From NCBI GenBank assembly GCA_037349105.1, contig JAYJMM010000123.1, positions 7,316,001 through 7,380,000 on the forward strand: a DNA stretch of 64,000 bases, in the 5' to 3' direction. Below are positions 1 to 64,000 of this stretch, one piece after another; position 1 is the stretch's first letter, and each line of letters begins with the position of its first letter. Position numbers and translations under genes: made by a program. The notes beneath the pieces are model-generated. The model was given only the letters and a program-made list of their open reading frames with translations. It was not told the origin of the DNA and did no database searches. The stretch comes from Limnomonas spitsbergensis (taxonomy: Eukaryota; Chlorophyta; Chlorophyceae; Chlamydomonadales).

Positions 1-740
1 CACCATGAGGTACAGCGTGATGGCAACATAACTGAAACGCTTGCCCCCTTGCTCCTCTGCCTCTCCTGCCTCCCCGCCTCTCCTGCCCTCCTGTCCTCCC
101 ACCCCTCCTGCATTGTGCACCTCTGGTCCCGTCTATGTCCCTTTGCCCTCACTTTGTTGAGCTGCCAGTGCCTCTGACATCACCATGAGGTACAGCGTGA
201 TGGCAACATAACTAAAACACTTGCCCCCTTGCTCCTCTGCCTCTCCTGCCTCCCCGCCTTTCCTGCCCTCCCACCCCTCCTGCATTGTGCACCTCCGGCC
301 CCGTCACTGTCCCTTTGCCCTCACTTTGTTGAGATGCCAGTGCCTCTGACATCACCATGAGGTACAGCGTGATGGCAACATAACTAAAACACTTGCCTCC
401 TTGCTCCTCTGCCTCTCCTGCCTCCCCGCCTCTCCTGCCCTCCTGTCCTCCCACCCCTCCTGCATTGTGCACCTCCGGCCCCGTCTATGTCCCTTTGCCC
501 TCACTTTGTTGAGCTGCCAGTGCCTCTGACATCACCATGAGGTACAGCGTGATGGCGACATAACTGAAACACTTGCCCCCTTGCTCCTCTGCCTCTCCTG
601 CCTCCCCGCCTCTCCTGCCCTCCTGTCCTCCCACCCCTCCTGCATTGTGCACCTCCGGCCCCGTCACTGTCCCTTTTCCCTCACTTTGTTGAGCTGCCAG
701 TGCCTCTGACATCACCATGAGGTACAGCGTGATGGCGACA
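1..740 (-). repeat. 180-bp tandem array carrying an exon end and splice donor
   Basis: Units begin at 1, 181, 353, 533 and 713 (spacing 180, 172, 180, 180). On the minus strand each unit contains an acceptor-like TTTCAG or TTTTAG, about 58 bases matching the 3' end of the TPR exon at 812-685, and a GTGAGGG donor. Donor positions are 685 (the exon judged real), 505, 325 and 153. The remaining part of each unit is intron-like and purine-rich on this strand. Because 180 is divisible by three, the minus frame stays open through several units. Confidence 0.9.
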
Positions 741-3700
741 TTGCCGGGGCCTGCGCAGCTGTCGGGCGCCTCATCCGCTTGGGAGGAAAACATGTTCAGG
801 GCGTCTTTGAACCTGAGCAGCAAAAGTAAAGCTTAAGGAAGCAAAGCTCTGGTGAGGCTCTCAAGTTTGGGGGAAAGAAAATGGAGAAGAAGGAGCAGCA
901 ACAGGATAGGAGATTGGTTGGGGGGGGGGGGGGGGCGGACGGGAGGTTGAACACGGGAATATCCAGGACTAATGACCGGTACCGGGAAGGCCTGAGGCAG
1001 AGGCATTGATCCCCTTGTCCCTATAACGATTAAAAACGACCCGAAGTTTAAACATTTCGTATCGTAGAACCGGATAGGGTTCATGCACCACTCTTTTGGA
1101 ATTGTATCAGAATCACTGCGCAGGCAAAGCATACATCACTCTACGCACGTGCAGCTGCAAATTTGTAACATACTGACTGACTGACTGACTGGCTGACTGA
1201 CGGGCTGATTGACTGACGGGCTGACTGACTGACGGGCCGTTCGCCCCTGATGCGCCCTGGTCCGAGCACCCCAAAATGTGTTTAATTAAACGCGAAGTGA
1301 AACCAGTTATACGGTTATTGTGTTTTGAGCAAACGCCTCGTCATTGCACCCCGCCTCATCTCTTCTCAATGACAAATTGGGGTAGGAGTTCCAGGTGCCA
1401 GACTAACCATAGCCTCAGCCCCCAAATTTGTTACTTTTTAATACAAAACGGTGTTTTCACATCTTGCCCGATTCATATCTTGAGGCAACGCCCGGGCAGC
1501 GCGGCAAGCGCGTCCCGCGTCGCCTCTCCTTAAATCCCTTAATAACGTAGGTGCAACCCAGCAGTCGTGATGGAGGGTGCCAGGATCATCGCCTGCTCAA
1601 AGAAATTAATTCCTAAGAATGCACATTTGCCCATATTGTTCGCGCATCTCGCCTCACCTCTTCTTAATGATGTAGGTGCAACCCAGCAGCACCCGGACGG
1701 TCATATTGGAGGGTGCCAGGACCATGGCCTGCTCGAAATCCTTCAGGGCCTCCGTCACGTGCAGCTGCATCCTGTGAGAAAACAACAGGTCCAAAAGTTG
1801 ACGCCCGGGGAATTCGAATTCGTAATGGGGAAAATTTGTATCGGGGAGGTGTGGACCGAGCAGAGGCGCATGCAAGGCCTGAATGGGAGGCCAGCACTAA
1901 ACTGCGCTCTTCCTTTGGCTCTCACAGATACACCTGCCACCCATCACAAAGCCTAAACCCTAATCCCTAAACCCTAAACAGCCGTCACCCCCAAGAAGCC
2001 TGTCTTACTTATATGCGTAATGACTACGCCAGGTTTTCCATGGGGGGTCAAAACGGCGGCCTTTTTATGCATAACCTCACAAGAAAAGCATGTAGTATCT
2101 TTGCATTTGCAGAGACACGCGCCACCAGCCACCTCCAAGGAAACACTTCCGTCGTAGTTGGTTTAGGGTTAAGGCTCTAGGATTTAAACCCTAAACACAT
2201 GCCTCAGGGTGTGGGGAGGGTTTAGGGTATAGGGTTTAGGGGACAGACACCCTAAACCCTAAACCCTAAACACACGCCACCTCCGAGGAAACACACTCCA
2301 CAAGGTGGGTTAAGGGTGTAGGGTTCAGGGGGGAAGAAACCCTAACCCCTGAACACAGGCCTCAGGGTGAAGGGAGCTCAATTTTCCCCTCTCTTCTCGA
2401 GTGGCTTCTCCCACACCGCCTGTATAGCACACCGATACCAAGTTAGGGTTTAGGGTTTAAGAGTTTAGGTTCTAGAAACCCTAAAACCCACACTGTCTAT
2501 GTAGCTCACCAATACCCTCCTGCAGCTGCTGTCTAATTTTGGACCACATCGATACCTAGTTTAGTGTTTAGTGTTTAGGGTTCTAGGCTTTAGGGTTTAG
2601 GGTCTAGAAACCCTTAAACCCACACTGCCTATGTAGCACCCCAATACCCTCCTGCAGCTGCTGTCCAGATTTTGACCGCTACAAGTCCAGCCTCGGCACA
2701 ACACCCCGGACTCTCCAGCCTCCTCAATCGGCATGATCGCTGCAGGGGAGTCGAACACACATGCCTCACCCCTCTCCCTCATGTTGCCATACCGCCACAT
2801 CCTCCTCCCTCCATCACCTGTGGCAGTAGGCTCGGTTGAACAGGCACTCCACGATGGGCTCTCCGGCCTCCTTGAGAGGCGCTATGGCAGAAGTGAAGTC
2901 GAACACGGCGTCGGCAAACTGACCCATGCGCATGTAGAGGAGCGCACGCATGCGGAGGCAGGGTCCGTTCTGCATGGCGGTGTAAAGTGTGAACACTCAA
3001 GCGACCCCTCGGGAGAGCACTAGTGCCCCTGCCCACCCTGCACCTCCCCCGGGTCAGCACTAATGCCCCCCCCCTCCCCACCCCCCCTCTTGCTGATATG
3101 CTGCTCCATGTTGATGAGAAAGGCAAGCCCATACCCATGTGCATGCCCTTGTCTGCAAGATTTTAAATACGATTTTCCATACCCGTGTCCACACCCTTTT
3201 CCGTACCTGTCTCCACACCCTTTTCCATACCCATGTCCACACCTTTTCCATGCTTGTGTCAATACACTTGTTCATACCATTCTCCACACCCTCGCCCACA
3301 AACCCTGATACAAACCCATGTCCCTACCCGTGGATCTGCCATCAGCACGGACTGCACGTCCTGCAACGCATCGTCCAGGTACCCCAGCGTGGCCAGTGTC
3401 CGCACGCGGGATGTGCGGAACTTGTGACAGTCATGCATTTCGATCGCCTGCTCAAACCTGCAGGCAAGCATACAGGGAGAGATTCATCTGGCTCTTTAAA
3501 CCTGATCATGGCAAGCCCCATCACCCATTCCCCACTATCCACAACCTACGACCCGCTACCGACCATCCACTCACCCCCCTCCCAATCACACACTCACTGC
3601 CACTCACTGCCCATCACTGACTCCTTACCACCCACTCCCCACTCCCCACCATCCACTATCCTCTCCCCACCACCCGCTCCCCACCATTCACTCCCGAACA

Positions 3701-7272: not shown

Positions 7273-10200
7273 ATGCAGCAGTTCAAGAACAGGACCGCAC
7301 CCGAGCGCAGGATAGCAGCATCAGGTCATGCGCACTCTCTTCTTATCTCTCCACATCGGATTGCACAGCAAAATATGAAGCAAGCAGGCCTGGGACAATG
7401 CCTGCAGCGGGTCGCACCCAACAGGAACCGTTCTTCGGCCACGCCCCTCAGCCAAGGCGCGAAGAAGGTGCTGCCATATATGATGGTACACAGCTCTGGT
7501 TACCAGCCTTCTTCCTACAAGCCCGTTGGTGGTGAGGCTAGCATCAAGGTCATCGGCGTCGGTGGTGGAGGTGGCAACGCGTTGAACAGGATGATCGCAA
7601 GCGGCCTTCAAGTAGGGGACTGACATCTATACACTAAAATCTGGGTTGATTTTGCTCATAATTCACTGGGCACGGGTGTCACAAATTCAAATTGGCTATG
7701 GTCCATGTGGAGAAGGCCGTTGACAGTATGCAGCCATGTCAAAGGATTTGAACGAGTGATCATAGCAAAGCTATAAGCCAGATATTGCGACGAGGTATTT
7801 CAATGAGGTCCTTTGCGTGCAGGGTGTCGAATTCTGGGCCGTGAATACGGACTCCCAGGCGCTGGCTCAGCACGCCGCCCCGAACAAGGTCCAAATGGGC
7901 ACTGCGCTCACACGAGGGCTTGGCTGTGGGGGCAACCCGAATCTGGGTCAGCAGGCAGCCGTGGAGTCCGAAGAAGCGCTGCGGAAAATGCTGCAGGTGA
8001 GAACTAAATGGAGCTCCTGCACTCCACACTTCTATGGTCAGGCAGCAGGGCGTGTTCTTCATGCCCACAAGACACAATCCGAGTCTCTCAAAAAGGATAC
8101 TCCATGCAGCCAGTTTAAGGCACAAAGCTCCATTACGGAATGCTGTCCCAACAGCCCTCGCCATCCTCTTCGTTTGTCGTTTATGATCAGTGCATATGCT
8201 TTAAAGAAAATATTTTCCTTTTACCTTCAGGTGAGGACGATCACCTCTTAAATTATAATGCACTGTCTCCAACCATACTTGCCATGATATGTTGATGAAA
8301 GCTCATCACAACGGGAATAGGATGTGACCACCCCTTCATACATATGAATGCGCTCACACACTTCTCGACCTGCACCTGATGCAACAGGGCGCTGACCTTG
8401 TTTTCATCACAGCGGGAATGGGGGGCGGCACTGGCACTGGAGCTGCACCCATCGTTGCCAAGATTTCTAAGGAAATGGGTGAGCCAGACAATTGACATTA
8501 TTCATCACAGAAAACCTGGCATGCAGCCACAGTTCCTTAAACGCGATGCACCAAACAACACAGGATGCCCCTCTGCCTTGTTGTCCATTAGGTGAACTGT
8601 TGAACAGGACACTCTTCAGCTTTTGAAACTAAATCAGTGGAAAGCTGTTCATCTTGCTTGTCACTGCATATTTGTTCCCATTCGCCCTGCCCGGACGTTT
8701 TTTAAACTAGGCTATGGGTCGGACAAGTGGACGCTGCAACAGCAACACTTTCCTCCCTTTTCCCATCCCTCCATGCATGCCTCATCTTGCTTCCCCTCCC
8801 CTGCCTACTTGTCCACCACCCTCACGCCCGTCACGCCATGCAGGCATCCTGACAGTGGCTGTCGTGACATACCCTTTCGGATTTGAGGGTCGCCGCCGAG
8901 GTACCCAGGCAGTGGAGGGCATCGAGGGGCTACGCCAAAATGTCGATTCTGTCATTGTCATCCCCAACGACAGGTAAGGCCTTGAATAAACCTCAGCTGA
9001 CAACTTGCATTTGTATGAATTTATATTTTTGTGATTTCCCCACCTACTCATCATGGGTCTATTCGCAAGACCAGGGCGTCCTCAGCAAGGCTATTGTATC
9101 TGGGGCTATGGGAATGCTATATCATCTTAGCAATACTGGAGTCATCAAGAATCTTATAACAGCACAGCTGATCAGTGTTGCCCCAAGGATATGAATATGA
9201 CGCTGCGCCCCTTGATCATTAGGCTTCTGGATGTTGCGACGGAACGCACGGCTCTGCAAGATGCCTTCGCGCTCGCAGACGATGTGCTGAGGCAGGGCGT
9301 GCAGGTGAGCCGCGTAGGGGATGCAACATGTCGTGATGCAGTGGACAGGTGGCAGGTGCATGCATCATGTGAGGGTACCGCATGCACTACCGCAGCCCTG
9401 CCATGCACATGACAGCTTAGAGGCAGGCCATGACGTGCATGTCAGACACGGTTGCACAGGGCAGCATCCATGATCCTGCCCCTCACATAGGAGGATGGCA
9501 TGGCTGCACCATGGCCCAGGCTGTGCATGGTAGCTGGAATTGAGCCTAGTCATTCCCTACCAGCCCCACGTTGCCAAGCGTTCAGCAGGGCCCAGCGGGT
9601 ATGCACCGTGCTTAACAGAGCAGCCATAGAGCCGTCTTTCAGTCCTCCTTGACTCCCCTGCCGATGCCTCTGCTGACGAACAAGTTCCCTCGTCTCAGCC
9701 TCTGCATCTTTGCCGTGCCCTCGCTCGACCCTGACCTGCTGCTTTCTCAGGGTATCTCCGACATCATCACTATGCCCTTCTGCGGCCCCCCTTGACCCCT
9801 ACTACTTACCAACACATGCCCTGGTCCCTGCCTCTGCATCCTTTGCCCAACTCTTCTCCCTGACCTGCTGCCGCTGCTGCCCTCTCAGGGTATCTCCGAC
9901 GTCATCACTGTGCCCTTCTGCGGCCCCCCTTGACCCCTACTACTTACCAACACATGCCCTGGTCCATGCCTGTGCATCCTTTGCCCAACTCTTCTCCCTG
10001 ACCTGCTGCCGCTGCTGCCCTCTCAGGGTATCTCCGACATCATTACTGTTCCGGGTCTCATCAATGTGGACTTTGCCGACATCAAGGCCATCATGTCGAA
10101 TGCGGGCACGGCCATGTTGGGCGTTGGCTCGGCCACAGGGCCGGACCGAGCGGAGCAAGCAGCGCTGGCGGCCACTGCGGCGCCGCTGATCCAGAGGTCC

Positions 10201-11352
10201 ATTGAGCGTGCCACAGGTGGATGCAAAAGCTAGGAACAAGAAACAATTGTTTGTATGAATCAAATATGCCTACCATAGATTTGCTTTGCCATCCCTTGTA
10301 ATTTACGTTGTTTGGGGTCAAGGGATCCATGGATTTACTAATTGTCGATTGCCAACGCCAGTTTTCTGTAGGAAATTGATAGTTTGCGTCCACAGTTTGC
10401 CCTGAGGACAGCATTAAAAGAAATCGTGTTTTGATGCTTAAGGGAAGGCAAATCAAATCTACGGTAATAGGGGACTCCAAACAACTCAATTGGCTTTCAC
10501 CTCCGCTTGCCTCTGCAGGCATCGTCTTCAACATCACTGGAGGCAGCGACCTGACGTTGCAAGAAGTGAACCGGGTGTCTGAGGTGGTCACAAGCCTGGC
10601 CGACCCCTCCTGCAACATCATCTTTGGAGCGGTGGTGGATGATCAGTATAACGGCGAGATCCACGTCACCATCATCGCAACAGGTGGGTGTGAGATTATT
10701 TGATGTAATGCAGCGCATCAGGTACGGTACGATAACATCTATTTCACCTGGCTGACACTCCGCGCAGCAGCATTTTTTTATAAATATTAGCGCGCATCCA
10801 GGTCCGCGCACCCCAATCATTAATTAATCTTGAGCGAAGTCTAGCTGGTTTACAGTATGACGGTCAGATCCCTGGGCTGAAAGGAGGAGGTGCAGCGAGA
10901 CAATTAGGTGTGGGGCAATGAGGGAATGGGGTACCCTTTGTGTCCCATAAGTGCCTCAGTTTTACCGTCCCTCTTGTTTCCTACTACGTCCCGCAGGTTT
11001 CAGCCAGAGCTTCGAGGAACAGCTATTCATCAAAGGCAGCAAGAGGGTCGTGGCACCCAAAGAGCAACCTCAGGTACAAAATGGCGGGCCAACTCTCATT
11101 TCGAAATTCTGCAGCATGAAGGGGGGGGCAATGAAGCGCTGAATAGGACTTGTGCCCTCATCGCCTAGCACTCAGCCTAGCCCCAGCACCTAATACACCA
11201 TGGCCTGCCTGCTTGCATTGATGGCATCCCACCTGCACTGCCTGCAGGCTGTGGCTGCACCGCCCCCTCCGCAGCAGAGGGCAGAGTCCGCGCTGCCCTG
11301 GAGCAAACCTGTCCGGGCCGATCGCGGCTTCCTAGGACGAAGCATCCTCTAG
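7273..11352 (+). CDS. FTSZ1: Plastid division GTPase FtsZ1
   Basis: Nine exons join in phase: 7273-7611, 7823-7996, 8388-8478, 8844-8973, 9223-9304, 10027-10216, 10519-10683, 10997-11073 and 11248-11352 (TAG), giving 450 residues. FtsZ is a tubulin-like GTPase that polymerises into the stromal ring dividing the chloroplast. Visible landmarks are the nucleotide-binding [15 protein letters not shown] (about 92-106), the tubulin signature [12 protein letters not shown] (181-192), and the T7 loop NVDFADIK with Asp287 and Asp290. Residues 1 to about 85 are rich in Arg, Ser and Gln, as in a transit peptide. Phrases such as VVTYPF, NDRLLD and [14 protein letters not shown] match plant FtsZ1 better than FtsZ2. 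The short tail ends in GRSIL, and no canonical FtsZ2 C-terminal ARC6-binding peptide was seen. Confidence 0.95.
9465..9620 (+). repeat. Dispersed repeat family B (copy 1)
   Basis: This stretch, in FtsZ intron 5, matches the reverse complement of 28440-28595 and partly 32565-32640. Shared phrases include CATGGTAGCTGGAATTGAG, TCATTCCCTACCAGCCCCA and GCGTTCAGCA. No coding sequence or terminal repeats are recognised. Confidence 0.75.
9735..10050 (+). repeat. 138-bp triplication of an acceptor and exon start in FtsZ intron 5
   Basis: The acceptor TCTCAG followed by the exon start GGTATCTCCGACATCATCAC occurs at 9751, 9889 and 10027, at an exact spacing of 138 bp. Only the third copy opens into the full FtsZ exon. 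The first two run into CTTCTGCGGCCCCCCTTGA and return to intron-like sequence. Confidence 0.93.
10271..10466. mobile_element. MITE family 1 in FtsZ intron 6
   Basis: An element of about 192 bp with inverted ends (CCATAGATTTGCTTTGCC at the left, GGCAAATCAAATCTACGG at the right) is flanked by TA on both sides. It matches 61776-61971, and its left half matches 46667-46800. No coding capacity. TA target duplication and short inverted repeats suggest a Tc1/mariner-type non-autonomous element. Confidence 0.85.
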
Positions 11353-35915: not shown

Positions 35916-36024
35916 CAGGAAGGGCTGAGCACAGGCCTGGCCCGCGCAGGGCTAGCGAGGCTGAGGATTATGCGAGGTTCGGGGTCGCCCCAGAGCAGGA
36001 TAAACAGGATCAGGAGGATCAAAC

Positions 36025-36415
36025 TGTGGTGGCCGGTGGCTGCGAGCCAGGCCAACTGCAGGTGCAGGCGCCGCGGCTGTGCTTGCAGAGGCAGGCAGCC
36101 CCTGTGACACCTGTGGTGGCCGGTGGCTGCGAGCCAGGCCAACTGCAGGTGCAGGCGTCGCGGCTGTGCTTGCAGAGGGTGGCAGCTCCTGTGACACCTG
36201 TGGTGGCTGGTGGCTGCGAGCCAGGCCAACTGCAGGTGCAGGCGCCGCAGCTGTGCTTGCAGAGGGAGGCAGCCCCTGTGACACCTGTGGTGGCCGGTGG
36301 CTGCGAGCCAGGCCAACTGCAGGTGCAGGCGTCGCGGCTGTGCTTGCAGAGGGAGACAGCTCCTGTGACACCTGTGGTGGCCGGTGGCTGCGAGCCGGGC
36401 CAACTGCATTCGTGG
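36025..36415 (+). repeat. 87-bp coding tandem repeat
   Basis: Four and a half copies encoding VVAGGCEPGQLQVQA and LCLQR with only a few substitutions, in frame in the gag-like ORF. The high identity suggests recent expansion. Confidence 0.92.
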
Positions 36416-50683: not shown

Positions 50684-53600
50684 ATGGGCGGATGGGGGTT
50701 GGCATGCATATCGCTCCTCCTCTTGGCTTGTGTAGCCCATGTCGCGGCAAAGGACCCTTATTCGACGTTAGGGCTGACCAAGTCTGCGTCAGACGATGAC
50801 ATCAAGCGCGCGTACAGAAAACAGGCTTTGAAATACCATCCCGATAAAGTAGGCAGACAGATAATGGTCTCCGGCGATCTTGCGCCCTCGTCACCATCCC
50901 GCCTCTTGACCCGCATTACCTACCTCTCAGAACCCCAAGGGAAAGGAGAGGTTCGTGGAGCTTCAGCAGGCGTATGAGATTCTGGGGGACCCTCAAAAGA
51001 GACGGCAGCATGATCTAGGAGGAGGGGTGAGTGTGCTTCCTGCCACTGGGAAAACAGGGGCAGTCCTAGCTGGTGTTGTTTCGCGCAGCCTTGTTTCGTC
51101 TCATAGTATGTAGCAGCTTGCCTCGCATGCCGCTGCCATGCAACAATGCATGGCGCCCGTTGCATGGTAGCCGCTATGCGCCTGCCTGTGGCATGGAAAT
51201 GAACATGCTGCTCCTGTGATGGCAGACCAGGGCATGGTTGTCAGGGTTGGCATGCTGCTACTTCCTGCCATGCAAACGCACGGTATGATCGAGTTCAATG
51301 CGCGTGCCACGATGAAAATACGGAGCTTGTAAGCAGGCGATGATACCACCTTGACGTCGCATTCCATGCCGCAAACTGCCATGCAAGCGCACCATTATTA
51401 TCCAGACAGGTGCATGTGTCACGACTCACATGGTGCCATCTGAAATTGATGATGTGGTCCACTCAAGTACGAAGGCCATGGCAACTGCACCTGCTAGTCA
51501 GCTTCTCTGCCTCTCTTCTTTCCTAATTAACTCCTTCTCCCCCTTATGATGCTTTTGCCCCGGCTCTCTACTGGCAGGGATTTGGACACCAGTCAAGGTA
51601 GGAGAGGGGAATAGAGCTGAAGCAAGCATCGGATGTAAAAATGAATGAGGAAGTGGTTCATTCTCCAAGCGTTGAATTAATCAAGTAGAGGGGGAGGGGG
51701 GGGGGGAGTGAAACGGCAGGAGTTTATCCCTATTTCTACTGTGCTCTATGCCTGGTCTCTCCCCGCCTCTTGTCGTGTTTCGAGACAAGGACTTAACTGC
51801 CACCAGCAATGCCTTCCACTATCCTGCAGCAGCATCCCCTTGACAATGACAGCTGGCAAGGGTAGTGGACAGGGCAAGCTACAGAATAAGGCAGAGGGCA
51901 GGGTTGTGGGCAGGGCAAGGTACAGAGGCAGGCAGGGTTGTGGGTGGGGCTGGTTTAAGAGCAGTGTTGTGGGCAGGGCAGACAGGAAGGCTGTGGGTAG
52001 GGCAGGGCAAGTTACGGAGTAATGCAAGGTTGTTGACAGGGTGTAGGGCAGGGTTAAGAGCAGCATTGCGGATAGGGTAAGGAAGTCCAAGCCACAGATT
52101 AAGGCAGGGTGTACAGCAGGGTCATGGACAGGGCAGGGTATAGGGCAGGGTACTGGGCAGGGCTGTAATCCCCACCCTTTCATCATTCTACTATGTTTAC
52201 TATAGCCTGATTGTTAGGCTGATCCCAGCTGCCTTGCTGATTACCCCCAGGCACCAAGGTCAGCAGCAGCAGCAGCAGCAGCAGTGGGGCCAGCAGCACC
52301 ACCACTGACACCATGTTGATGATACCTTTGATGCTGATCCCAGCTGCCTTGCTGATTGCCCCCAGGCACCAAGGTCAGCAGCAGCAGCAGCAGTGGGGCC
52401 AGCAGCACCACCACTGGCACCATGTTGATGATACCTTTGATGCTGATCCCAGCTGCCTTGCTGCTTGCTCCCAGGCACCAAGGTCAGCACCAGCAGCAGC
52501 AGTGGGGCCAGCAGCACCACCACTGGCACCACCAGGAACCCGACCCGGACACTGTCCTGCCCTCAGAGACCGTCACGCTGACCTCCTCAAACTTCCAGCA
52601 CCACGTTTTTACCAACCACAAGCCCTGGCTCATACTGGTGGGACTGGGAGGCGGGTGGTTGGAGTCTCGGTCAGTTTTCTAGTTCTCCTTTGGTAATCCG
52701 GATTCGTTTGAAGACTCCCAGCACTGCGTGTTCTCTCCAGCCACAAGCCTGGCTCATCCTGGTAGGATTGCGGGACAGGAGGAATTTAGAGGTTGAAGTC
52801 CTGGTGAATAACTTTATTTTCCTTATGGTATCCCGGATTTGTTTGGAGACTTCCAGCACCACGCGTTCACCAGCCACCAGTCACCAGCCTTGGCTCATCC
52901 TGGATGGGGTGGCCAGAGACAGGAATTTAATGGGCTAAATTTTCTCCTAATCATGCCGTATTTTGGATTTGTTTGAAGACCTCAGCTTCATGTGTTCACC
53001 AGCCACCAGCCACCAGCCCTGGCCCAGCCTGGTGAGGCCCCTGTAGACGGGGAGTGGTGACCACCCCGCCCCCATTGCCCATGATCCCGTCCCAATGGCC
53101 CAGACCCCCGCCCCTAATCGCTTATTACCCCCCCCCCCACGGCCCTTACCCCCGACCATACCGCCCCAAATGCCAATATAATCCCCGCCCCCCATCGCTC
53201 ATTATCCCAGTCCCAACTGCCCTTACCCCCGACCATACAGCCTATACCCCCGTACATACCCCGGCCTCCCCCCGCCCAATATCCCTCCATCCTCCATTCC
53301 CCTTCCCCCCTCCCCCCGCCCATTATCCCTCCCCCATTTCCCTTACCCCCGCACCGCTTGCCTCCCTCCTTCTTTGCCTAGCTCTGGTCCGAAGAGAGCT
53401 TAGAGAGCCGGTCGGCCATGCCGGTCTGGGAGGCGCTGTTCAAGTCCATGGCTGGGACAGGCAGCGGGCAGGAGTGGGCGCGCATGGGGCGGATCCATTG
53501 GAAGTCCCAAAGACATCTGGTGCACTGGTGAGTGGTGAGCAGCAGTTGAGGTGAGGGTGTAGGGTAAAACCTCAACCCAGAGGCATCTGGTGTACTGCTG

Positions 53601-56600
53601 AGTGGTGAGCAGCAGTTGAGGTGAGGGGTTAGGGTTGCGGGTATAGCCTAAATCCTATACTGGAGATTTAAAGTGCATGTTGAGGTGTGGGTGTAGGGTA
53701 AACCCTTCACCCAGAGGCATCTGGTACACTGGAGAGTGTAGAGCATAAGTTGAGGTGTCGGTGTAGGGTTGAGGGTATAGCCTTAACCCTATATTAGAGA
53801 CTTGGAGTGCAGGTGCATGGGGCAGATCGATTGGAAGACTCTATCTAGAAGCATCTGTGCACGGGCGCGGCGTTTCCTTTCAGCCGTCTGCGGCAGCCTT
53901 CTTAAGCATTCCTTCACCAGTATTGATCCAGTCTAACAATTATTGATGGCACTGAAAGATCCACTGGTAGTGAGCAGTAGGGTTCAGGGTTGGGGAATAG
54001 GATAAAGCCTTCATCCTTAACTAGGGGATCACAGTGCAGGGGTGCAGCGGCATGAGATGGTGTTCATGATTTTCTGCAAATTGGTGTTTCTTGTGGCTAT
54101 GTGTCAGGCTAGGTTTGTCCATGACTTGGTGTCCTTGCGTTGGTGGCCGCTTGTTTGTCGGTGCTGGCACGCATGGCTTGGGTTTGTGTGCATGGGCCTG
54201 GCTGCATGAGGTAGTGTGGACGTTTTCAGCACTTTGTGTTGACATGCACATTGGTGAGTCTGCACGCCTTGCTCGGCTTTTTTGCATGAGTTTGAATGGA
54301 TCACCCTCGGGGCCGGGGCTCAGGCGCAGGCTGATGCTCGGGCGCTATTTCATTTCATGTCTGGTGGGATGACCAGGCTCACACTTTCCTCCTGTGAAGC
54401 TGCAAGATGGGTCTCGTGCAACGGTAGCTGTGCAAGGGTGCTGTGAAGGCCTAGTCTGCACAAGCGAATGCTGGGGCAATGCAGAAGGGTAGGAGGTGAG
54501 GGGCGGAACGCCTCCTCACGCCTCGCTCACTGCCGTGGAAGTAGCAGTAGGGGCCAAGTGTCACCCACCTGCCGCTGTTGCCCTTATTGTACAACAGGCT
54601 GAACCATAGCTGGCTGGCATTCCATCAGCAACGCCTGCATGAGTCCCTCCCAATGTTCACACAAGCTTGACCCACCTGCCGCTGTTGTCCTTGTTGTACG
54701 ACAGGCTGTACCAAGGCATAGCTGGCTGGCATCCCATAGCTACGCCTGCATGAGTCCCTCCCAATGTTCACACAAGCTTCACCCACCTGCCGCTGTTGCC
54801 CTTGTTGTACAATAGGCTGAACCAAGGCATAGCTGGCTGGCATCCCATCAGCTACGCCTGCATGAGTCCCACCCACCTGCTGCTGTTGTCCTTGTTGTAC
54901 GACAGGCTGAACCAAGGCATAGCTGGCTGGCATCCCATCAGCTACGAGTCCCTTCCTGTGGTCGTTGGAGTGTCGCCCACCTGCCGCGAGTTTTCGTGCA
55001 TGAAGAGGTCGGTTTGGAGAATTGCAATCAAATGTGCTCAACTTGCTTGGTGCATATGGGTGGGGAGTGGAGGGGTGAGGGGCAGCCAATTATAACGGGA
55101 AAACCCGCCTGGACAGGGGGCAATATTGCAATCAAATGTGCTCAACTTGCTTGGTGCATAAGGGTGGGAAGAAGGGGGCAGCCAATTATAACGGGAGAAC
55201 CCGCCCGGACAGGGGGCAATAGTCCAGTGGACTCATCTGGCTTGGTGCATAAGAGTGGGGAGGGAGAGGCAGCCAATCGTCGCAGATTCGTTATCCGGGC
55301 AGGGTTGCAGGTGCACACTCTGTTCAACCTGTTCCTTGCATGTGGGTGGCAAGGGGGGAGGCTGCGTTTTTTTGTCACCTGTGCATTGATGAGGTTTGGG
55401 TTAAGGGTTTAGGGCTAAGCTCCCCCCTTGAGCTAAGGGAGGGAGGTATGAGGGGGGGGGGAGCCTGAGATGCAACTCAATCCTTGAATCCTTTTCGGAT
55501 CAAGATGGGAGGCTCTCACCATTGTCTGCCCCTCACACAGAGGGTGTTGGAGGCTGGTATTTATCACCTGCATGGTTGTGTGACGGAAGGCCGAAAGTGG
55601 TAAGGCACTAAACCCTCCTTCACCACACGTTTCACCGGCAACCATGCAGGTGAAAATCCAAACTCAGTATAAGAAGTTTAGAAGTCGGCAGGACTCATGG
55701 GCGTCGCATCGAGGTTTTTTCCTACCGTGTGTCTAGCTCAGGCCATGGTTCCGCCTCCTTTAGGGGTTACGGTTTAGTCTAGGGATGAGTAGGGGGTCTA
55801 AACCCTGTTCTGCTCTCTTAAGAAGTCAGAGTTCAGTTAAGGGTTTAGTAGGGGGTCTAAACCCTGTTCCGTCTCCTTTAGGAGTAAGGGCTTAGTTAAT
55901 GTTTTAGTAGGGGGTCTAAACCCTGTTCCGTCTCCCTCTCACCACATCTCATATGACCACCTTTAGGGTTTGGGTTCGGGTTAGTAGGGATAAAGCTAGA
56001 TCCTTAGGGTTTATGGTTAGGGTTAAGTAGGGATAAACCTTAACCCTAAACCCTGAACCAAATGCAGCGGATTCTGCATATGTGTTCTGGAAGAAATTTG
56101 GTTCTTTTATCTTTCAGTGTATGATGAAAAGAAAGAATCATCTCAAAACTTTGCCAAATTTCCTGTCTCCCCCCGGTTTACAGGCACATGTCCCATGCAT
56201 CAAGTGTGATGCTCTGTTGGACTGTAAAAACTTCACTAACCCTGATCCGTCTCCCTCTCACCCCATCTAACATGACCACCGTTGTATCCCCTCCTTGGCC
56301 CTGTCCCACGCCATATCCCGCAACCCCTCCTGCAGGTACCACGGCCAGATCACTATACCTCAGCTACAGGAGTTTGTAGCTGAGGGCCTGATGAACCTGG
56401 ACCCGGTGCCGTCCCTGTCCCTGGGCAGCCTGGACATCCTGTTGGGGAACGTCTCTCCGCTGAAAGTGGTGGTGCTGGCATTCGGCAAGAGTGAGGGGCA
56501 GGTGAGCGGGCTCTATCCCGGGCTGGAGCTGGGAGAGGGCTCTAGCATAAGTGGTGGTGCTGGCTTCCATCTAGAGCAAGGGGCAGGTGAGCGGGCTCTA

Positions 56601-59600
56601 TCCCGGGCTGGACCTGGGAGAGGGCTCTAGCAAAGGAAGTGGTGGTGCTGGCTTCCATCTAGAGCGAGGGGCAGGTGAACGGGCTCTATCCCGGGCTGGA
56701 CCTGGGAGAGGGCTCTAGCAAAGGAAGCAGTGGTGCTGGCATTTGGGAAGATTGAGGGGCAGGTGCGCGGGCTCTATCCCGGGTTGGAGCTGGGAGAGGG
56801 CTCTAGCAAAGGAAGCAGTGGTGCTGGCATTCGGGAAGAGTGAGGGGCAGGTGGGTGGGCTCTATCCCGGGCTGAAGCTGGGACAGGGCTCTAGTAAAGC
56901 AAGTGGTGGTGCTGGCATTCGGGAAAAGGGAGGGGCAGGTGAGTGGGCTCTATCCCGGGCTGAAGCTGGGACAGGGCTCTAGTAAAGCAAGTGGTGGTGC
57001 TGGCATTCGGGAAAAGGGAGGGGCAGGTGAGTGGGCTCTAGCCCGGGCTGGATGTGGGAGAGGGCTCTAGCAAAGCTAGTGGTGGTGCTGGCTTCTGGCT
57101 AGAGCAAGGGGCAGGTGAGCAGCTGGAGATAAGAGACGGATCTAGTGAAGTATGTGGAAACCAGAGATGCTTGAGGTGGTCTGTCTCCGTATTCATGATT
57201 TTAGAAATACGCATCTGCGGCCTAGTTAGGAGTGAAAAGGCTCACCTCTTGACAGCCCTCTTCCTGAGCCCTGTTTCTGACAAGACGCTGTGGATTTTTG
57301 CTCACCTGTCAAGTGTGGCTTTGACCTGTCGCTGACCCGTCAGTGTTTGGATGTGACCTATCTTGTGTGGATCTCACCTGTCATGTGTGGCGTAGACCTG
57401 TTGCTGACCTGTCACGCGTTTTGCTGGCTTTTCTCTGAGCAGGGCAGCCTACCGCTGCGCATGCTGGTCAAGAAACATCTGTCCATGATGCACGTGGTCC
57501 GGGTGGCGTACCAGGAGGCGGACGCGGAGGCATGGCGGGCGCGGTTGAAAGTTGACGGCCTGCCGCCGGCACCCTTCGTCGTGTTCTTTCGAGGGCCCGG
57601 GACATTGCCTGAGGTGGGTGTGTGCGTGTTATTGTGTGGTCCTTCCTCTTTGTGGGTGGGTGGGTGGGTGGTTTTTGTTGTGTGGACCTTGGAATGTGCC
57701 CGAGGTGGGTGGGTGGGAGGGTGGGTGGGCGTTCTTTTGTGTACCTTGCCTGGCGCCCAAGGTGAGTGGGAGGGTGAGTAGGCGTTATGTTGTGGACCTG
57801 GCCTAGTGTCCGGGGTGGGTGGGTGGGATTGTGCAAACCTTTCCATCTTCGCTCTCAAATGTGCGAACTTGCCTAACACGTTGACCTTGGGACCTCTCCC
57901 TGACCTATTTTTTCTCAAACCCATTGACCTGCCTACCTACTTATCGAAAGGTAGGTAGGCAGGTAGGTAGGCAGGTAAATAGGTTTAAAAATAAAGATTG
58001 ACACCTCCCTACCTGTTGATACCAATCTCCTTTCCTCGTGCTCTCAACCCTACTCACCTACCTTGGCTCAAACCTGATCACCCAAATACCATGCAAAAGG
58101 CACACACCAAAGGTTGATTCTTAACCCTAAACAACCAATCCGCGCCTCTCCATAGCTTGGCCACTCCTGAACCGCCTGAGCCACCACCTGAGCAACCACT
58201 TGTGACTCTTTGAATGCCCATCCTCTTTAGGTGCTTCCGCTCGGCAAGGGCGCAGGCTCTGAGTTAGGACGGGAGGTGGAGGCCCGGGGCCTGATGTGGC
58301 AGTCGCTACCGGCCCTTCGTCCAGCAACGCAGGTGCCCTTGGGCTGTGTCATAGGTCTGGGAGGCGGCGCCGGCTCCGGCGCCGACCTGTGCGTGGTGGC
58401 CGTCTCCCCGCAGCGCGGGCCTTTGCAGGAGGCTGGCCGTGCGGCGATGCTGCGCCTGCAGGAGGTGATTTGGTCGCGGCGGTTGCCGGGCGCGGCCATG
58501 GCGTCAGCATTCAAGGCGATGGAGGCGGGGAAGCTGAGGGTCACGTGGATGGACGCGGCGACTCAGCAGCCGTTCTGCAAGTAGGCGTACGGGGCGGAAA
58601 CGGTGTGTAGTGTTTCTTTTGTTGTGACTCTGCTACATGTCAGCTACACACCGGCCTCTGGCCGGAGGCCCCATTTGAGGCCCGCCATGCTACTTTGGCC
58701 ACCATTCGTAGGCCGGCCCAGACGGTGTGTGGTAAGGTGTGTGAGTTGCTGTTTATATCTGTTTGTGGGTACCACTTGTAGAAAGTGGATGGTGAAAACA
58801 AAAACATGTTTTCGTGCTCATAACCAGAGAAACCGTTTAAACCTGAACTGTGTGTCCTGCCAAGATCTCTGGGTGACCATGGGGGCTTAACGTGGGCTAC
58901 AGCCGGCCCTGCTTAGGGGCTGCTGCCCCTGTCACAGCCGGCCCTGCTTAGCGGCCGCCGCTCCTTTCACAGCCGGCCCTGCTTAGCGGCTGCCGCCCCT
59001 TTCACAGCCGGCTCGCTTAGGGGCTGCCGCCCCTGTCACAGCCGGCCCTGCTTAGGGGCTGCCATTCCTGTCACAGCCGGCCAGTGAGCTGCCTGCCCCA
59101 CCTCATACCCTCGCCCCTTTGCCCCCCTGCACCCTGCGAGTTGCCCCTGCCCCTCACCTGTTGTCAAATGTACCATTTTGAGGCGGATGGATCTTGCTAA
59201 CCTGACGCCCCTTTCACTGCCGGCCTGTGAGCTGCCTGCCCTGCCTCGTACCCTCATCCCCCTGCATCCTGTGTGCTGTCCGTCCCGCCTCATCCCCCTG
59301 CATCCTGTGTGCTGTCCGTCCCGCCTCACTCCCCTGCATCCTGTGTGCTGTCCGTCCCGCCTCACTCCCCTGCATCCTGTGTGCTGTCCGTCCCGCCTCA
59401 TCCCCCTGCATCCTGTGTGCTGTCCGTCCCGCCTCATCCCCCTGCATCCTGTGTGCTGTCCGTCCCGCCTCACTCCCCTGCATCCTGTGTGCTGTCCGTC
59501 CCGCCTCATCCCCCTGCATCCTGTGTGCTGTCCGTCCCGCCTCACTCCCCTGCATCCTGTGTGCTGTCCGTCCCGCCTCATCCCCCTGCATCCTGTGTGC

Positions 59601-62600
59601 TGTCCGTCCCGCCTCATCCCCCTGCATCCTGTGTGCTGTCCGTCCCGCCTCATCCCCCTGCATCCTGTGTGCTGTCCGTCCCGCCTCACTCCACTGCTCC
59701 CTGTGGATTCCCCCGTCCCCTTACCTGATGTCACAGGTACCACTTTGGGGCAGATGGATCGTGCTAACCTGCTGACCCTGTCACAGCCGGCCCCGCCGCC
59801 TAGGCGCTGCCCTGACCCTGCCACACCCGGCTGCACCCTGTGAGCTGCCCGCCCCTTGTCTTTTTTCACAGGTACCATTTTGGGGCAGACAGATCGTGCG
59901 GTTTCCCCCGGTGGCAGCTGATTGCCGAGCGGCTGCTTCAGCGCCCAGCGCGGAAAGCTCTGCCGATGAAGCTCCTGGCCTACCGCCCTAGTGGTGAGCT
60001 GCAGCAGTCCTGTTGGGGTTGGCGGCAATGCCACCTGTTAGCTGGGGATGTTGTAGGCTCGTTGTAGGCTGGTGCGTAGGCTGGTGGTCCTTATTTGGTC
60101 ATGGCGTCGCCATGTGATATATTTTTTTCCTTCGAGTGTTTTTACATCACAATGTATAGCAAGAATAATGAATGAAACGGTAGATTAGCTTGGCCTTCCC
60201 GCAAAAATATAGTGTACAAGGGGTGCGGGATAGGCCGTGCGAACTACAAGGTACCGTAGTGATACGATGATTTGGTGATACGATGATATTGGTTGAAGAA
60301 AATCGATGGAAAATAAAAAATGGTGATAACAAATTGGTTAATGGGATTTGGCCGCATTTTCGACAGTGATTTAAATTGGTTATTCATTTTTTTTACATCG
60401 CCAGCTTAGGTTCAAACTCAGGGGTTCATTCAACCTCAGGGGTCCAATCAAACTCAAGGGTCCAATCAAACTCAGGGGTCCATTCAAACTCAGGGGTCCA
60501 TTCAAACTCAGGGGTCCATAAACACTGTCATCCTCGGCAGGATCCACAGCCCTTTGCAGACCACCTGCACTTGCTGCACCCCGTGGACTTGCTTGCAGCA
60601 ACAGCCGCAGCCAGCCTCTGCAACCCCTGATCTAGGCGGCCTGCTGCTGCCTCTATCATTGTAAGGCCCGCGCCGGCGTTTGCCCAGGTTCAGAGACAGT
60701 CGCACTGGCTCCTGATCCAGTAGGCTGGCGAGCGCTGCCCGGACATTAACTGCGAACCTGCTCATCGCTTGCCGGAGCGCCGACAGGATGCGAGGGCGCT
60801 TTGCAGCTCCCGAGTGTGGGTCGAAATTGAGCCCTGCGCTGCGTCTCCAAGAGCCTCTCTTCCTTTTGTCGCTGTACCTGGATCTAGCCTGACGGATTGC
60901 GTGGAAGCACTAGGCTGCCCCGGAAGAACCCGGGGCATGAAATCGAAAAGGTTACGCTGCCTCGCAGGAGGCCTTAGTAGTGAGCTAGCAGCACCTGGAC
61001 GTGGACCTGGTCCACCGCTGGGGCCCTCCATCGCAATATATATCTACTAGAGAAATTTTCGCGGCTATCCTGGCTTAACGCAAATTTCGAGGGTTTCCGA
61101 GGGTTTGGGCGGTTAAATCGCGGTGATTTAAGTTGGTTATTGATTGTCGCAGCATTTTACATGGTGATACAATTGGTTATTCCAATAACCAATTGGTATC
61201 ACCAAATCATGGTATCACTACGGTAAGTAATTATGGGGGCGCGCGATAGCGACGCTGGGCGAATCGGCTAGAATCAGTTGGAATCAGGCGGTGCGTGAAC
61301 TAAGACCGGTCAACGATGGGAAATTCTCTGCAAGGCCTAATAAACAGTGAAAAAAGGTTGCGGGGCTTGATATAATAAGTTGTTTTCTAGGGATGCTGGG
61401 GAGGCTATTTTAATCTACGATGACTGAATCTGATGCAGGGATGTTCCGATCAAGCACCAGTATCCGTGATATTTAGAAAGAATGGAAATTCACACAGCTG
61501 GAGGCGTGCGTGAAGGAAGCCATCTAAATGCAAATCATGCGCCGGGACTGGTACCAGAAACTGGTAGAAATTTGCGAGAAATTCGGTGGATCACCATCGA
61601 GCCATGTGTTGATATATGGTCTGAGATTGGTGACAACAACCCTGCGGCAAAGTGGAAGCTGGTGCACCTCCACTGATAGCTATAATGTGCGTCTTATGCT
61701 GATGCGGCTGTCTGAGAGCTCTTGCGTATCCTTAGCGTTGATGGCACAGTGGGCTGGTATTACAATGGAGCGTATTACTGTATATTTGCTTTGCCTTCCC
61801 TCATAATTAACGTTGTTTGGGGTTGAGGGATCCACACAATCATTAATGACCGATTGTTGACGCCAGATTACAGTCAGAAAATAAGAGTTTTGGTCGAAAG
61901 TTTGCCTTGAGGACAGCATTGAAGGAAAACATGTTTTCATACCCGAGGGAAGGCAAATCAAATCTACGGTATTGCGTAATATTTTATGATGTGTATTCTA
62001 TTATGATGATGCGGCTTTCCTACTGTTCATGATTACCCTCGGCGCTGATGGCATCGTGGGCTGGCACTACATCGACCTATCGCCTGCTGGGCTTGGATGG
62101 AGGGCATGTGGCCTTTGTTTAAATGTCTGCATCACCTCTGTCGATGCCCGCAGTCGGTAAAACCTCCTCGCGACGCCCGCCCACGTACTACCACGCTCAG
62201 CTGCTGACGATCGACATGTCGGATCCGAACCTGGGCGAGGCCCAGATCCGCCAGGCGGCTGAGTGGGTGGCGCAGTGCCACGAGGAGTCGATCGCGCTGG
62301 GCTCGTCGCACGGGGGCCGGCGGAGCGTCGACGAGGAGGGTGGCGAGGATGTGACGACCATGCACCGCATGCCTCAGGTGATGCGCTCGCCTCCCGCAGG
62401 TTGACCCCTGTCAGGGTTTAGATTTTAAGGTTAAGGGTAAAGGGTAAACCCTAGCGTAGTGCTGCGCTCGCCTCCTGTAGCTTGACCTCCGTCAGGGTGT
62501 AGGGTCTTAGGTGATGGGTTAACCTTATCCCAAACCTAAAGCTGCGCTTGCCTCCCGCAGCTTGAACTCCGTCAGGGTACCGGTATAGGGTGAAGATTTA

Positions 62601-63382
62601 CCTCTAAGCGAGTGTGATGCGCTCGTCTCCTGTAGCTTGCCCTCCCTTACTCAGTGCCCCTTGCAGGCCCTGTAGCTGCAATTGCTTGTTTACGAGGCAT
62701 CCCAGATTCGAAAATGCATCTATGCACCGCACGCCACTGGTCCTGCACTCACCTCATGTAGGTTGAACTCCATGACCCACAGCCCCTTGCATGCCCTGTA
62801 CTTGCAATTGCCTGTATGGTGTATCAAGCACTATAGTTAAAATTACGCCCATTCACCGCACACCTCAGGTGCGGAGCTTGCCTCGCGTAGCTTGACCTCA
62901 GTAACCCACAGCCCCTCCCAGTTTGTGCGCCCTTTTGCTGTATTTGCCTGTTTGTAAAGCATTCCAGTTCAAAAAAAGATCGTGATTCATGAACAGGTCC
63001 ACCGCTGCCAGCCAGGCGCAACATTTGTGGGTGAGACGTGTGGCGGGCTAGAGGTCCCACCACGGCATGGGTGGGCTAGCTGTCAGTGGGTCTCGTCTGA
63101 CTGCCCCAGACTTAAGAGCCCGTCGGTGCTGCACCGCCATTCCTGAACCTCCCTTGCCCCTCCCTTTCGCCCCAGGGCGGGATGCCGCCGCTGCTGGAGG
63201 TGGATGACCGACCCACCGCGACCGAGTACGCGGTTTCGAAGCTGGCCTCGTGGCTCCGCTGGATACGCAGCACCTCCGGCCTCATGTCTGGTTCGGGCTT
63301 GGGCGAGTCCTCGCTGCAGATGCTTTCGACGGCGGTCATCTTGGCGTTGCTGTCGCTGATGCACCTCGTTTGGTACCAGTGA
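50684..63382 (+). CDS. DnaJ/thioredoxin-like membrane protein, DNAJC16 type
   Basis: Eleven exons join in phase: 50684-50848, 50931-51026, 51578-51597 (a 20-nt microexon), 52475-52637, 53382-53527, 56336-56501, 57443-57613, 58231-58580, 59872-59993, 62154-62377 and 63176-63382 (TGA), 609 residues. Residues 1-22 form a signal peptide. The J domain (about 23-84) has HPD at 52-54. A Gln/His-rich linker is followed by a thioredoxin-like region (NHKPWLIL, about 140-148), where no CXXC is visible. A hydrophobic segment ([15 protein letters not shown]) near the C-terminus is probably a membrane anchor. J proteins recruit Hsp70/BiP; this one would act at the ER membrane. The last exon ends WYQ with TGA overlapping a perfect donor (CCA then GTGAGT), so a further exon beyond the window is possible. 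It is related to human DNAJC16 by architecture only. Confidence 0.82.
51840..52170 (+). repeat. Degenerate GGGCAGGG-type repeat in DnaJ intron 3
   Basis: Loose units of about 35 bp with GGGCAGGGTTGTGGGCAGGG. The rest of intron 3 (51598-51839) shows no feature beyond a poly-G run at about 51690-51705. Confidence 0.7.
52220..52500 (+). repeat. Triplicated acceptor and exon start (DnaJ exon 4)
   Basis: CCCAG followed by GCACCAAGGTCAGCA begins at 52251, 52366 and 52475 (spacing 115 and 109), each preceded by GATCCCAGCTGCCTTGCTG. The copies differ in CAG number. The first two lead to ACCATGTTGATGATACC and not to the rest of the exon. Copy 1 also has an in-frame TGA. Confidence 0.93.
52590..53045 (+). 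repeat. Four copies of an exon end and donor (DnaJ exon 4)
   Basis: The exon end CACAAGCCCTGGCTCATACTG at 52637 recurs, with exon-like CCAGCACCACGYGTTCACCAG and CTGGCTCATCCTG, at 52761, 52902 and 53031 (spacing 124, 141, 129). Copies 2 and 4 keep a GT after the exon end, copy 3 has GA. Confidence 0.9.
53100..53370 (+). repeat. C-rich simple sequence before an acceptor
   Basis: Units such as CCCCCGACCATAC and CCCATTATCCC fill the end of DnaJ intron 4 up to the acceptor at 53381. Confidence 0.75.
53510..53880 (+). repeat. Copies of exon 5 end and donor of the DnaJ gene
   Basis: CATCTGGTGCACTG followed by GTGAGTGG at 53527 is echoed by CATCTGGTGTACTG at 53597, CATCTGGTACACTG near 53733 and CATCTGTGCACGG near 53867. 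Telomere-like GGTGTAGGGT runs lie between them. Later copies have lost the exact donor. Confidence 0.8.
54560..54985 (+). repeat. Tandem repeat of about 100-120 bp in DnaJ intron 5
   Basis: Four copies of CACCCACCTGCCGCTGTTG followed by TTGTACRACAGGCTG and AGCTGGCTGGCATCCCAT. R marks a variable base. No gene was recognised in the part of intron 5 from 53881 to 54559. Confidence 0.88.
55015..55290 (+). repeat. Three-copy tandem repeat of about 105 bp in DnaJ intron 5
   Basis: Copies contain GCAATCAAATGTGCTCAACT, TTGCTTGGTGCATAAGGGTG and GCAGCCAATTATAACGGGA. Confidence 0.88.
55760..56060 (+). repeat. Telomere-like and TAGGGGGTCTAAACCCTGTTC repeats
   Basis: Three units of about 65 bp sharing AGTAGGGGGTCTAAACCCTG are followed by TTTAGGGTT-type runs, in DnaJ intron 5. 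56061-56335 has a copy of the CATGTCCCATGCATCAAGTG dispersed phrase and otherwise nothing. Confidence 0.85.
56465..57120 (+). repeat. Eight copies of an exon end and donor at 88-bp spacing (DnaJ exon 6)
   Basis: The real exon end at 56501 (GTGAGGGGCAG followed by GTGAGCGGGC) is followed by copies with exon ends at 56586, 56674, 56762, 56850, 56938, 57026 and 57114. The spacing is 85 bp once and then 88 bp six times. Each copy repeats GTGGTGGTGCTGGCATTCGG (about 40 bases of exon), the donor with GT intact, and intron sequence containing CTCTATCCCGGGCTGGA. Confidence 0.97.
57595..57840 (+). repeat. Four copies of an exon end and donor (DnaJ exon 7)
   Basis: Exon ends at 57613, 57704, 57761 and 57814, each with a GACCTTGSCTGRNGCCCGAG-like exon tail and a GTGGGTGGG or GTGAGTGGG donor (S, R and N mark variable bases). 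The copies diverge but every GT is intact. Further on, a palindromic AGGTAGGTAGGCAGGTAGGT run lies at 57948-57980. Confidence 0.85.
58893..59080 (+). repeat. 44-bp tandem repeat CAGCCGGCCCTGCTTAG
   Basis: Four to five units of ACAGCCGGCCCTGCTTAGGG and GCTGCCGCCCCTGTC in DnaJ intron 8. 58635-58725, just upstream, is the second copy of dispersed family C. Confidence 0.9.
59155..59900 (+). repeat. Three copies of an acceptor and exon start (DnaJ exon 9)
   Basis: The exon start GTACCATTTTGGGGCAGACAG at 59872 (acceptor TTTTTTCACAG) has earlier copies at 59737 (GTACCACTTTGGGGCAGATGG with an intact TCACAG) and about 59170 (TACCATTTTGAGGCGGATGG, AG lost). Both are followed by GATCKTGCTAACCTG, which is not in the real exon. 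Confidence 0.9.
59233..59700 (+). repeat. 36-bp minisatellite between two acceptor copies
   Basis: About 12-13 units of CATCCTGTGTGCTGTCCGTC followed by CCGCCTCAYYCCCCTG. 36 is divisible by three, so all frames stay open. Confidence 0.95.
60252..61225. mobile_element. DNA transposon with about 30-bp inverted repeats and TA duplication
   Basis: A 970-bp element (60254-61223). The left end CCGTAGTGATACGATGATTT and the right end (reverse complement CCGTAGTGATACCATGATTT) continue with few mismatches for about 30 bp, and TA flanks both sides. The interior has two minus-strand frames (61031-60762 and 60765-60508) that overlap at ATGA, with [17 protein letters not shown] and [20 protein letters not shown]. 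Neither is recognised. Subterminal TTGGTTATT repeats and a TCAAACTCAGGGGTCCA array (60410-60520) are present. It lies in DnaJ intron 9. Confidence 0.8.
61776..61971. mobile_element. MITE family 1 in DnaJ intron 9
   Basis: Matches the element at 10271-10466 over its whole length (ATTAACGTTGTTTGGGGTTG, GAGGACAGCATTGAAGG-like, AGGCAAATCAAATCTACGG) and is flanked by TA. 61226-61775 of this intron shows no gene. Confidence 0.87.
62360..62985 (+). repeat. Copies of exon 10 end and downstream intron (DnaJ gene)
   Basis: CACCGCATGCCTCAG followed by GTGATGCG at 62377 recurs as CACCGCACGCCACTG near 62741 and CACCGCACACCTCAG followed by GTGCGG at 62868. A shorter companion unit (GCGCTCGCCTCCYGYAGSTTGACC) recurs at about 62386, 62465, 62545 and 62620. 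Confidence 0.8.
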
Positions 63383-63960
63383 GTTGGTCGCAGAGTCATG
63401 TGGTTCAGGTGGGGGCTCTTCGGGGGCTGGGTAAAACGTTATTCAGTGAAGGAGGTTTGGTACCAGCAGGTACCCGTGAGTGAGCATTGCCATGTCATGC
63501 ATGCAGTGTCTTCAGGGGCAAGATATCATATCGTCCAGAGAATGATCTTGTCCTGACAGTGCTATCCTTCCTGCTTCACCTTGTTTGGTACTAATGAGGC
63601 GAGTTGACTAGCAGTGCTCCTGCCACACGGTGCTCATTTGGGGCACTTCAGAGTCAGGATGTAAGAAAGAAAGAAAGGTACGCCCAATTACGGCGTGGGG
63701 GTGAAGGAAACAGCGCAGCTTGGGGCCGTAGCCACATCCATGCCGTTACCCTGAGGCACATCAGAGAGGCAGGATGTAATGTTGCACAGTCGTCTTGGCT
63801 GTGCTCTTGCTGATGCACCGCGTTTGGTACCAGTGAGAGGGCAGAGTCGTAACATTCATTTGAGTCCTTTGGGGGCTGGATGTTTTGCTGCCTATAGTGA
63901 AGGCCCTCTTTCCGGCGGTGTTGCCGCTGCTACACATGATTTCGTCCCATGGAGTGGCGG
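63320..63960 (+). repeat. Copies of exon 11 end and flanking sequence (DnaJ gene)
   Basis: GATGCACCTCGTTTGGTACCA followed by GTGAGT at 63378 is repeated as TTCACCTTGTTTGGTACTAATGA at about 63594 and GATGCACCGCGTTTGGTACCA followed by GTGAGA at 63832. The last copy also repeats the following GGCAGAGTCGTAACATTCA and CTTTGGGGGCTGG. Confidence 0.85.
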
Positions 63961-64000
63961 GGGGGAAGTGGTCTGTTTTAGTGTGCACCTGGCCACCGCT

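Follow-up and report, generated by a model that had tools for sequence, protein, structure and literature searches.

Introduction

Introner elements are repeated intronic DNA in which near-identical intron sequences are dispersed over many genes. Laboratory pre-mRNAs with duplicated splice sites, reportedly studied by Reed and Maniatis in 1986, place identical tandem sites in competition within one transcript. Here we describe tandem arrays that overlap exon-intron junctions in the snow alga Limnomonas spitsbergensis, which carries such duplicated sites naturally, in several genes and sometimes in many copies; unlike introners, the three array units searched occur at one locus each. We analysed the arrays in a stretch of 64,000 nucleotides (the window; assembly GCA_037349105.1, contig JAYJMM010000123.1, positions 7,316,001 to 7,380,000) and in 25 kinesin genes of the same genome. 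The junction arrays are probably part of a local tandem duplication process that is blind to position, overlaps junctions among other places, and is tolerated there because the extra copies become intron; we put the probability of this reading at roughly 0.85.

Arrays over exon-intron boundaries have been described in humans. The variable internal tandem repeats presented in the accessible text of PMC2812944 resemble the algal arrays in that minisatellite-type arrays lie over exon-intron boundaries and intron length is changed. That text reports 27 intron modifications in recently duplicated genes, most of them with alternative transcripts, and proposes slippage or unequal crossing-over as their source. 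A preliminary description of the window knew of no described system with this layout at this density. Against that statement stand the human repeats, which were however published for far fewer junctions: in the alga, 39 of 276 predicted junctions in one gene family are crossed, the median spacing to the nearest copy is 111 base pairs (bp), and the arrays are known from sequence alone.

Two further systems share features with the alga. According to the accessible text of PMC10809524, 792 human introns lie in 262 tandem repeats, and there, as in UBC, the repeat unit carries a splice site and gives rise to arrays of near-identical sites. In UBC, however, one type of site serves as both donor and acceptor within a coding repeat, whereas no algal donor matched its own acceptor in 138 introns. 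Work on intron evolution in Drosophila describes tandem duplications that contain splice sites (PMC2891723, as far as its accessible text goes). Intron gain or sliding of that sort is similar in that the duplication takes in a splice or proto-splice site; in the alga, existing introns appear to be lengthened, and no new or moved intron was noticed, although no cross-species search was made. Neither the accessible text of PMC11228838 and PMC8226300 nor the open-licence literature searched mentions arrays that span junctions in this alga or in related ones, which is weak evidence of absence. Structures of this kind are thus already known; the unusual features are how dense they are and how many near-identical sites compete in some introns.

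Results and discussion

Tandem copies in kinesin introns

With the kinesin motor family as query, 139 matches at the exon level were found in the genome (260,226,709 bases in 124 contigs). From about 45 clusters, we analysed 25 loci that were picked by listing order and size, blind to repeats. A profile built from homologs and exon fragments was aligned to the kinesin DNA with a spliced dynamic-programming script, and the resulting exons and junctions are homology predictions, not transcripts. Re-estimating the profile and the splice matrices kept 102 of 106 first-pass introns. The final set was reduced from 142 to 138 introns (276 junctions) by dropping three that were shorter than 60 bp and merging two at locus L045 that flanked a 3-base exon. 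A clean motor domain could be read in most of the predicted proteins. Loci L042 and L043 are closely alike; the latter, possibly a pseudogene, yields only part of the motor domain. A second family, TCP-1 (PF00118), was located at 72 matches in the genome and lies outside the intron sample.

Near-tandem copies, defined by strict self-comparison, are present in 70 of the 138 introns. One dinucleotide shuffle of each locus gave zero coverage, so the repeats exceed what chance would give. In all, we found 39 crossed junctions, 17 among the 138 donors and 22 among the 138 acceptors. However, introns are crossed more often inside than at their ends. The interior comparison was limited to introns no shorter than 160 bp, 127 in all. 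Here, 39 of 254 junctions (15.4%) are crossed, compared with 22.6% of interior points, a ratio of 0.68 (gene bootstrap 0.52-0.83). The ratio is 0.62 (0.48-0.77) when the 11 shorter introns are kept for the junctions. Exons are nearly free of copies: of 1,495 points located 60 bp or deeper inside exons, 1.5% are crossed, and exon coverage beyond 90 bp is 0.7-1.4%. An earlier and laxer self-alignment, which joined repeats through exons by gapped extension, pointed in the same direction (24 of 212 junctions crossed, 21.8% of intron points and 4.1% of exon points).

Copies of junctions as possible splice sites

Could the copies be kept because they work as splice sites? The preliminary description had considered them a deliberate source of alternative sites, and copies might be retained as functional alternatives or decoys that yield protein variants or poison isoforms. 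We consider this unlikely. We left aside copies whose alignment has a gap at the junction. Of the 131 partner copies that remain, 130 are located in the intron of the junction itself, and exons contain none. When places no more than 3 bp apart are merged, there are 130 distinct copies at the 39 junctions (median one, maximum 38). The splice dinucleotide is intact in 111 of them, as expected of functional sites, but 38 of these belong to one array. Compared per junction with the flanks, moreover, the dinucleotide is not significantly better kept either at donors (+0.082, -0.016 to 0.178) or at acceptors (-0.027, -0.161 to 0.094). The spacings of the nearest copies show no preference for frame at the 39 junctions, with 14, 13 and 12 leaving a remainder of 0, 1 and 2 when divided by three. 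The dinucleotide is intact in 29 of the nearest copies; 10 of these keep the frame, and 3 do so without a stop. The frame data give the idea of a deliberate source no support.

The most extreme array lies at kinesin locus L059. The exon there has AACTCAGCCAG at its end and is followed by 1.1 kilobases (kb) of a repeated 25-28 bp unit with the same CAG/GTG (the slash marks the splice site) at its end. Tandem Repeats Finder (TRF) reports a 27-bp unit in 40.8 copies, and the motif AGYYAG/GTG occurs 41 times, including the exon-adjacent copy. We also considered whether this array keeps the reading frame and rejected the idea: 15 of the 40 inner copies keep the frame, and a single one does so without a stop. 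Use of any of the other 39 would shift the frame or introduce a stop, shortly upstream of the motor's SSRSH motif.

Exon edges and array ends

The preliminary description also suggested a duplication mechanism anchored at exon edges. Such a mechanism, coupled for example to splicing, R-loops or reverse splicing, would seed arrays at junctions, and it would suit both the window, where 10 of 12 listed junctions are crossed, and the kinesins, where 17 of 25 genes have at least one crossed junction. It is nevertheless very unlikely, since junctions are crossed less than interiors, array ends do not pile up at edges, and coverage rises inward. From 17-20% over the outermost 10 intron bases, coverage climbs to 51-53% past 320 bp, partly because long introns supply the deep bases. 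Rotation within each intron, which removes the effect of intron length, gives an expected coverage of 0.232, compared with 0.167 in the first 10 and 0.197 in the last 10 bases. The deficit is -0.049 for both ends (95% interval -0.086 to -0.013) and -0.064 for the donor end (-0.115 to -0.010). The density of array ends per 100 bp is nearly flat: 0.31 and 0.27 at 31-60 and 1-30 bp into the exon, 0.36 and 0.27 at 0-29 and 30-59 bp into the intron, and 0.27-0.29 further in (to 479 bp). It is 0.076 at 61-90 bp into the exon. The preliminary description had proposed a scan comparing repeat starts at exon edges with random intron positions; in the 25 kinesin genes, this comparison speaks against anchoring, as edges are no richer than the deep intron.

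Alternative readings: intron birth and assembly error

Introns might instead have been born by tandem duplication of an AG/GT stretch, through exon duplication or dual-specific splice sites. Donor copies of the CAG/GT type do have AG followed by GT, and origins of this kind are discussed in the accessible text of PMC2891723 and PMC10809524. However, none of the 138 introns has a donor that matches its own acceptor (hits span up to 1,500 bp, and 4 introns exceed that length), and the mean ungapped identity of donor and acceptor, 0.251, equals that of mismatched pairs, 0.253. Old events could have decayed past detection; as an account of these arrays, intron birth is extremely improbable. Lastly, we give hardly any weight to an artefact of long noisy reads: the accessible text of PMC11228838 describes an assembly from PacBio continuous long reads, in which array copy numbers may be imprecise, but also a read L50 of 32.9 kb and Illumina polishing, and assembly error is unlikely because the copies have diverged (median identity of self-hits in the kinesin loci 87%) and the arrays examined, at most a few kb, are far shorter than the reads.

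A probable position-blind duplication process

The pattern fits a blind minisatellite process filtered by selection. Short stretches would be duplicated anywhere and at a high rate, by replication slippage, template switching or unequal exchange, and the outcome would be sorted by its effect. A duplication inside a coding exon would alter the protein and be removed by purifying selection. One that crosses a junction would spare the exon if the exon-adjacent splice site is used; since the surplus copies end up in the intron, selection would tolerate it. Duplication within an intron would be nearly free, and repeated rounds would lengthen introns. If so, the ratio of 0.68 would measure how well junction-crossing duplication is tolerated relative to intronic duplication. 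The process would presumably act genome-wide. The array units themselves do not look like a mobile family, because all three that were searched against the 260-megabase genome match their own locus only (the 138-bp unit of the FtsZ gene, the unit at 53506..53769 and the 88-bp unit at 56464..57120, all in the window), in searches that pass over very common words.

Several points weigh against this reading. The test consists of a single gene family (the 25 kinesin genes) and the 12 introns of two window gene pieces. Junctions are derived from homology, the copy taken to be used is a prediction, and the aligner favours the copy that leaves no insertion. Low exon coverage could reflect mutational bias in place of selection. 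On the donor side, coverage is still 7.5% at 61-90 bp into the exon, compared with 1.0% at acceptors, so arrays reach well into some exons. The deficit at the acceptor end alone is not significant (-0.034, -0.094 to 0.024), and the first 30 intron bases are, slightly, the densest bin for array ends (30 ends in 8,280 bp), a rise that is probably not meaningful. The dinucleotides of donor copies are kept somewhat better than their flanks, without reaching significance. Finally, 28 of 93 two-copy hits with an identity of at least 90% are as long as their spacing or longer, whereas 65 are shorter. Many repeats are therefore spaced, and simple slippage is not enough. Of the proposal in the preliminary description that introns grow by slippage, growth by tandem duplication finds support, with array bases and intron length correlated at r = 0.84 over the 138 introns (a part-whole correlation, to be read with care).

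What would position-blind duplication mean for splicing? Tentatively, about one in seven junctions may compete with one to about forty near-identical copies in the same intron, with the spliceosome always picking the exon-adjacent copy, such that position or exon context, not the sequence of the site, marks the true site. If only the exon-adjacent copy is spliced, the alga offers an extensive natural collection of splice-site competition constructs in which copy number, spacing and identity vary by gene, and the old question of how a true site is told from an identical decoy could be addressed in vivo. The arrays would also offer a simple route to longer introns with exons intact, and they are a warning to annotators that junctions crossed by arrays are easily misplaced. 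The genome has a mean intron length of 788 bp, 33% repeats and an annotation of 18,277 genes with 6.7 exons per coding sequence (accessible text of PMC11228838); IsoSeq data have also been published (PMC11228838). With these gene and exon numbers and 39 crossed junctions per 138 introns, a rough extrapolation from one family gives about 29,000 such junctions genome-wide.

Arrays in the window

The dense tandem arrays that the preliminary description saw in the window were confirmed by TRF and self-comparison. There are 108 TRF rows (overlapping rows counted), and near-tandem self-copies make up 22-29% of the bases, depending on settings. Units of 180, 138, 109 and 88 bp stand head to tail, and some copies are spaced and not adjacent (Table 1). 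The same description listed tandem copies over 12 exon edges. Under strict settings, which require at least 10 bases on both sides of the junction, copies cross ten of these (685, 23451, 52637, 53527, 56501, 62377, 10027, 17410, 52475 and 59872). The remaining two are not crossed under these settings: the copy at 63378 (63335-63430 compared with 63789-63879) appears only in a first, differently scored comparison and is absent under strict scoring, and at 57613 the repeat begins at the junction without crossing it in both scorings.

Among the ten crossed junctions, homology directly backs 10026/10027 alone. Those at 685, 17410, 23451, 52475 and 62377, together with 63378, are proposed junctions outside the homology checks, and 685, 17410 and 23451 read as junctions on the minus strand only. 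In the two window pieces with predicted gene structures, 5 of 24 junctions are crossed (1 of 14 in the FtsZ gene and 4 of 10 in the gene at 52566-59995), so most junctions are clean. To position the splice sites of both pieces, we aligned composite peptides derived from the window itself, a procedure that does not prove the proteins. Mean coverage over their 12 introns is 0.30, compared with 0.25 in the first ten bases and 0.17 in the last ten. The window thus agrees with the kinesin result.

The FtsZ gene (7540-10998) has 7 predicted introns. Its exons starting at 10027 and 10519 match FtsZ of solved structures (PDB) end to end; the upstream exons were read by eye, and the last acceptor was placed on two bases only. 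The acceptor motif CTCAGGGTATCTCC occurs at 9746 and 9884, and the copy predicted to be functional is at 10022. Use of either upstream acceptor copy would bring a stop 14 codons further on.

The gene at 52566-59995 has two relatives (P0121 and P0122) with 53-55% identity across 46-51% of the query. They cover only the exons 57443-57613 and 58231-58580, supporting these and their joining. The crossed junctions at 52637, 53527, 56501 and 59872 lie outside this coverage and are predicted from the open frame and GT/AG. The donor motif of the 88-bp array, GGGCAGGTG, occurs eight times, at 56496 (the exon edge), 56581, 56669, 56757, 56845, 56933, 57021 and 57109.

Table 1. Arrays and copies at predicted or proposed splice junctions, in window positions except for the last row
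Position	Strand	Feature	Evidence
1..741	-	Array, unit 180 bp, 4.2 copies in window, over proposed donor near 685	TRF, self-comparison
9305..10026	+	Predicted FtsZ intron 5; acceptor region (last intron bases and about 26 exon bases) twice more upstream	PDB match, spliced alignment, copies
9670..10052	+	Array, unit about 138 bp, reaching 26 exon bases past acceptor 10026/10027	TRF, self-comparison
17335..17988	-	Array over proposed acceptor near 17410	Self-comparison
23224..23481	-	Degenerate copies over proposed donor near 23451	Self-comparison
52218..52531	+	Array, unit 109 bp, proposed acceptor 52475 and two upstream copies (motif at 52247, 52362, 52471)	TRF, self-comparison
52591..53032	+	Degenerate near-tandem copies, donor 52637/52638, predicted intron 52638-53381	Self-comparison, spliced alignment
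53506..53769	+	Copies of donor 53527/53528, predicted intron 53528-56335; exact internal match at 53530 and 53600	Self-comparison, spliced alignment
56464..57120	+	Array, unit 88 bp, over donor 56501/56502	TRF, self-comparison, spliced alignment
57614..58230	+	Intron, donor 57613/57614 followed by GGTGGGTGGG-rich repeats; junction uncrossed	Self-comparison, spliced alignment; exon contiguity from P0121
59656..59899	+	Near-tandem copy, acceptor 59871/59872, predicted intron 58581-59871	Self-comparison, spliced alignment
62354..62902	+	Spaced copies, proposed donor 62377	Self-comparison
63335..63879	+	Spaced copy, proposed donor 63378	First scoring only
L059:2118-3217	-	Kinesin 5' splice site array, 41 tandem copies, 25-28 bp spacing	TRF, sequence, motif count

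Other repeats and open frames

No gene emerged when 20 long stop-to-stop frames from the window were searched against Pfam; 18 of the 20 matched no family. The other two gave DUF3729 under the cut-off in frame 23433-24323 (minus strand) and MUC20 slightly over the cut-off in frame 59088-59840, a frame created by a 36-bp array. Neither Rfam at gathering thresholds nor ARAGORN with bacterial settings found anything in the window.

The telomere heptamer TTTAGGG/CCCTAAA occurs 74 times in 80.5 kb of kinesin intron (L039-L063), compared with a mean of 14 in five shuffles, about fivefold, and once in 23.7 kb of kinesin exon. Near-tandem copies contain 41 of the 74 intron occurrences. A motif of three telomere units is matched exactly at 6,571 places in the genome, a count that includes the telomeres themselves. 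Some of the repeats may derive from telomere-like DNA.

Long open frames at 35168-40930 run over arrays with units of 75, 87, 18 and 54 (or 110) bp. Pfam found no domain in two of these frames, which may be coding repeats or may have been opened by the repeats. Kilobase arrays of very short units lie at 20053-21006 and 29768-30784 (CAGGG-type; a 14-bp unit in 72.6 copies).

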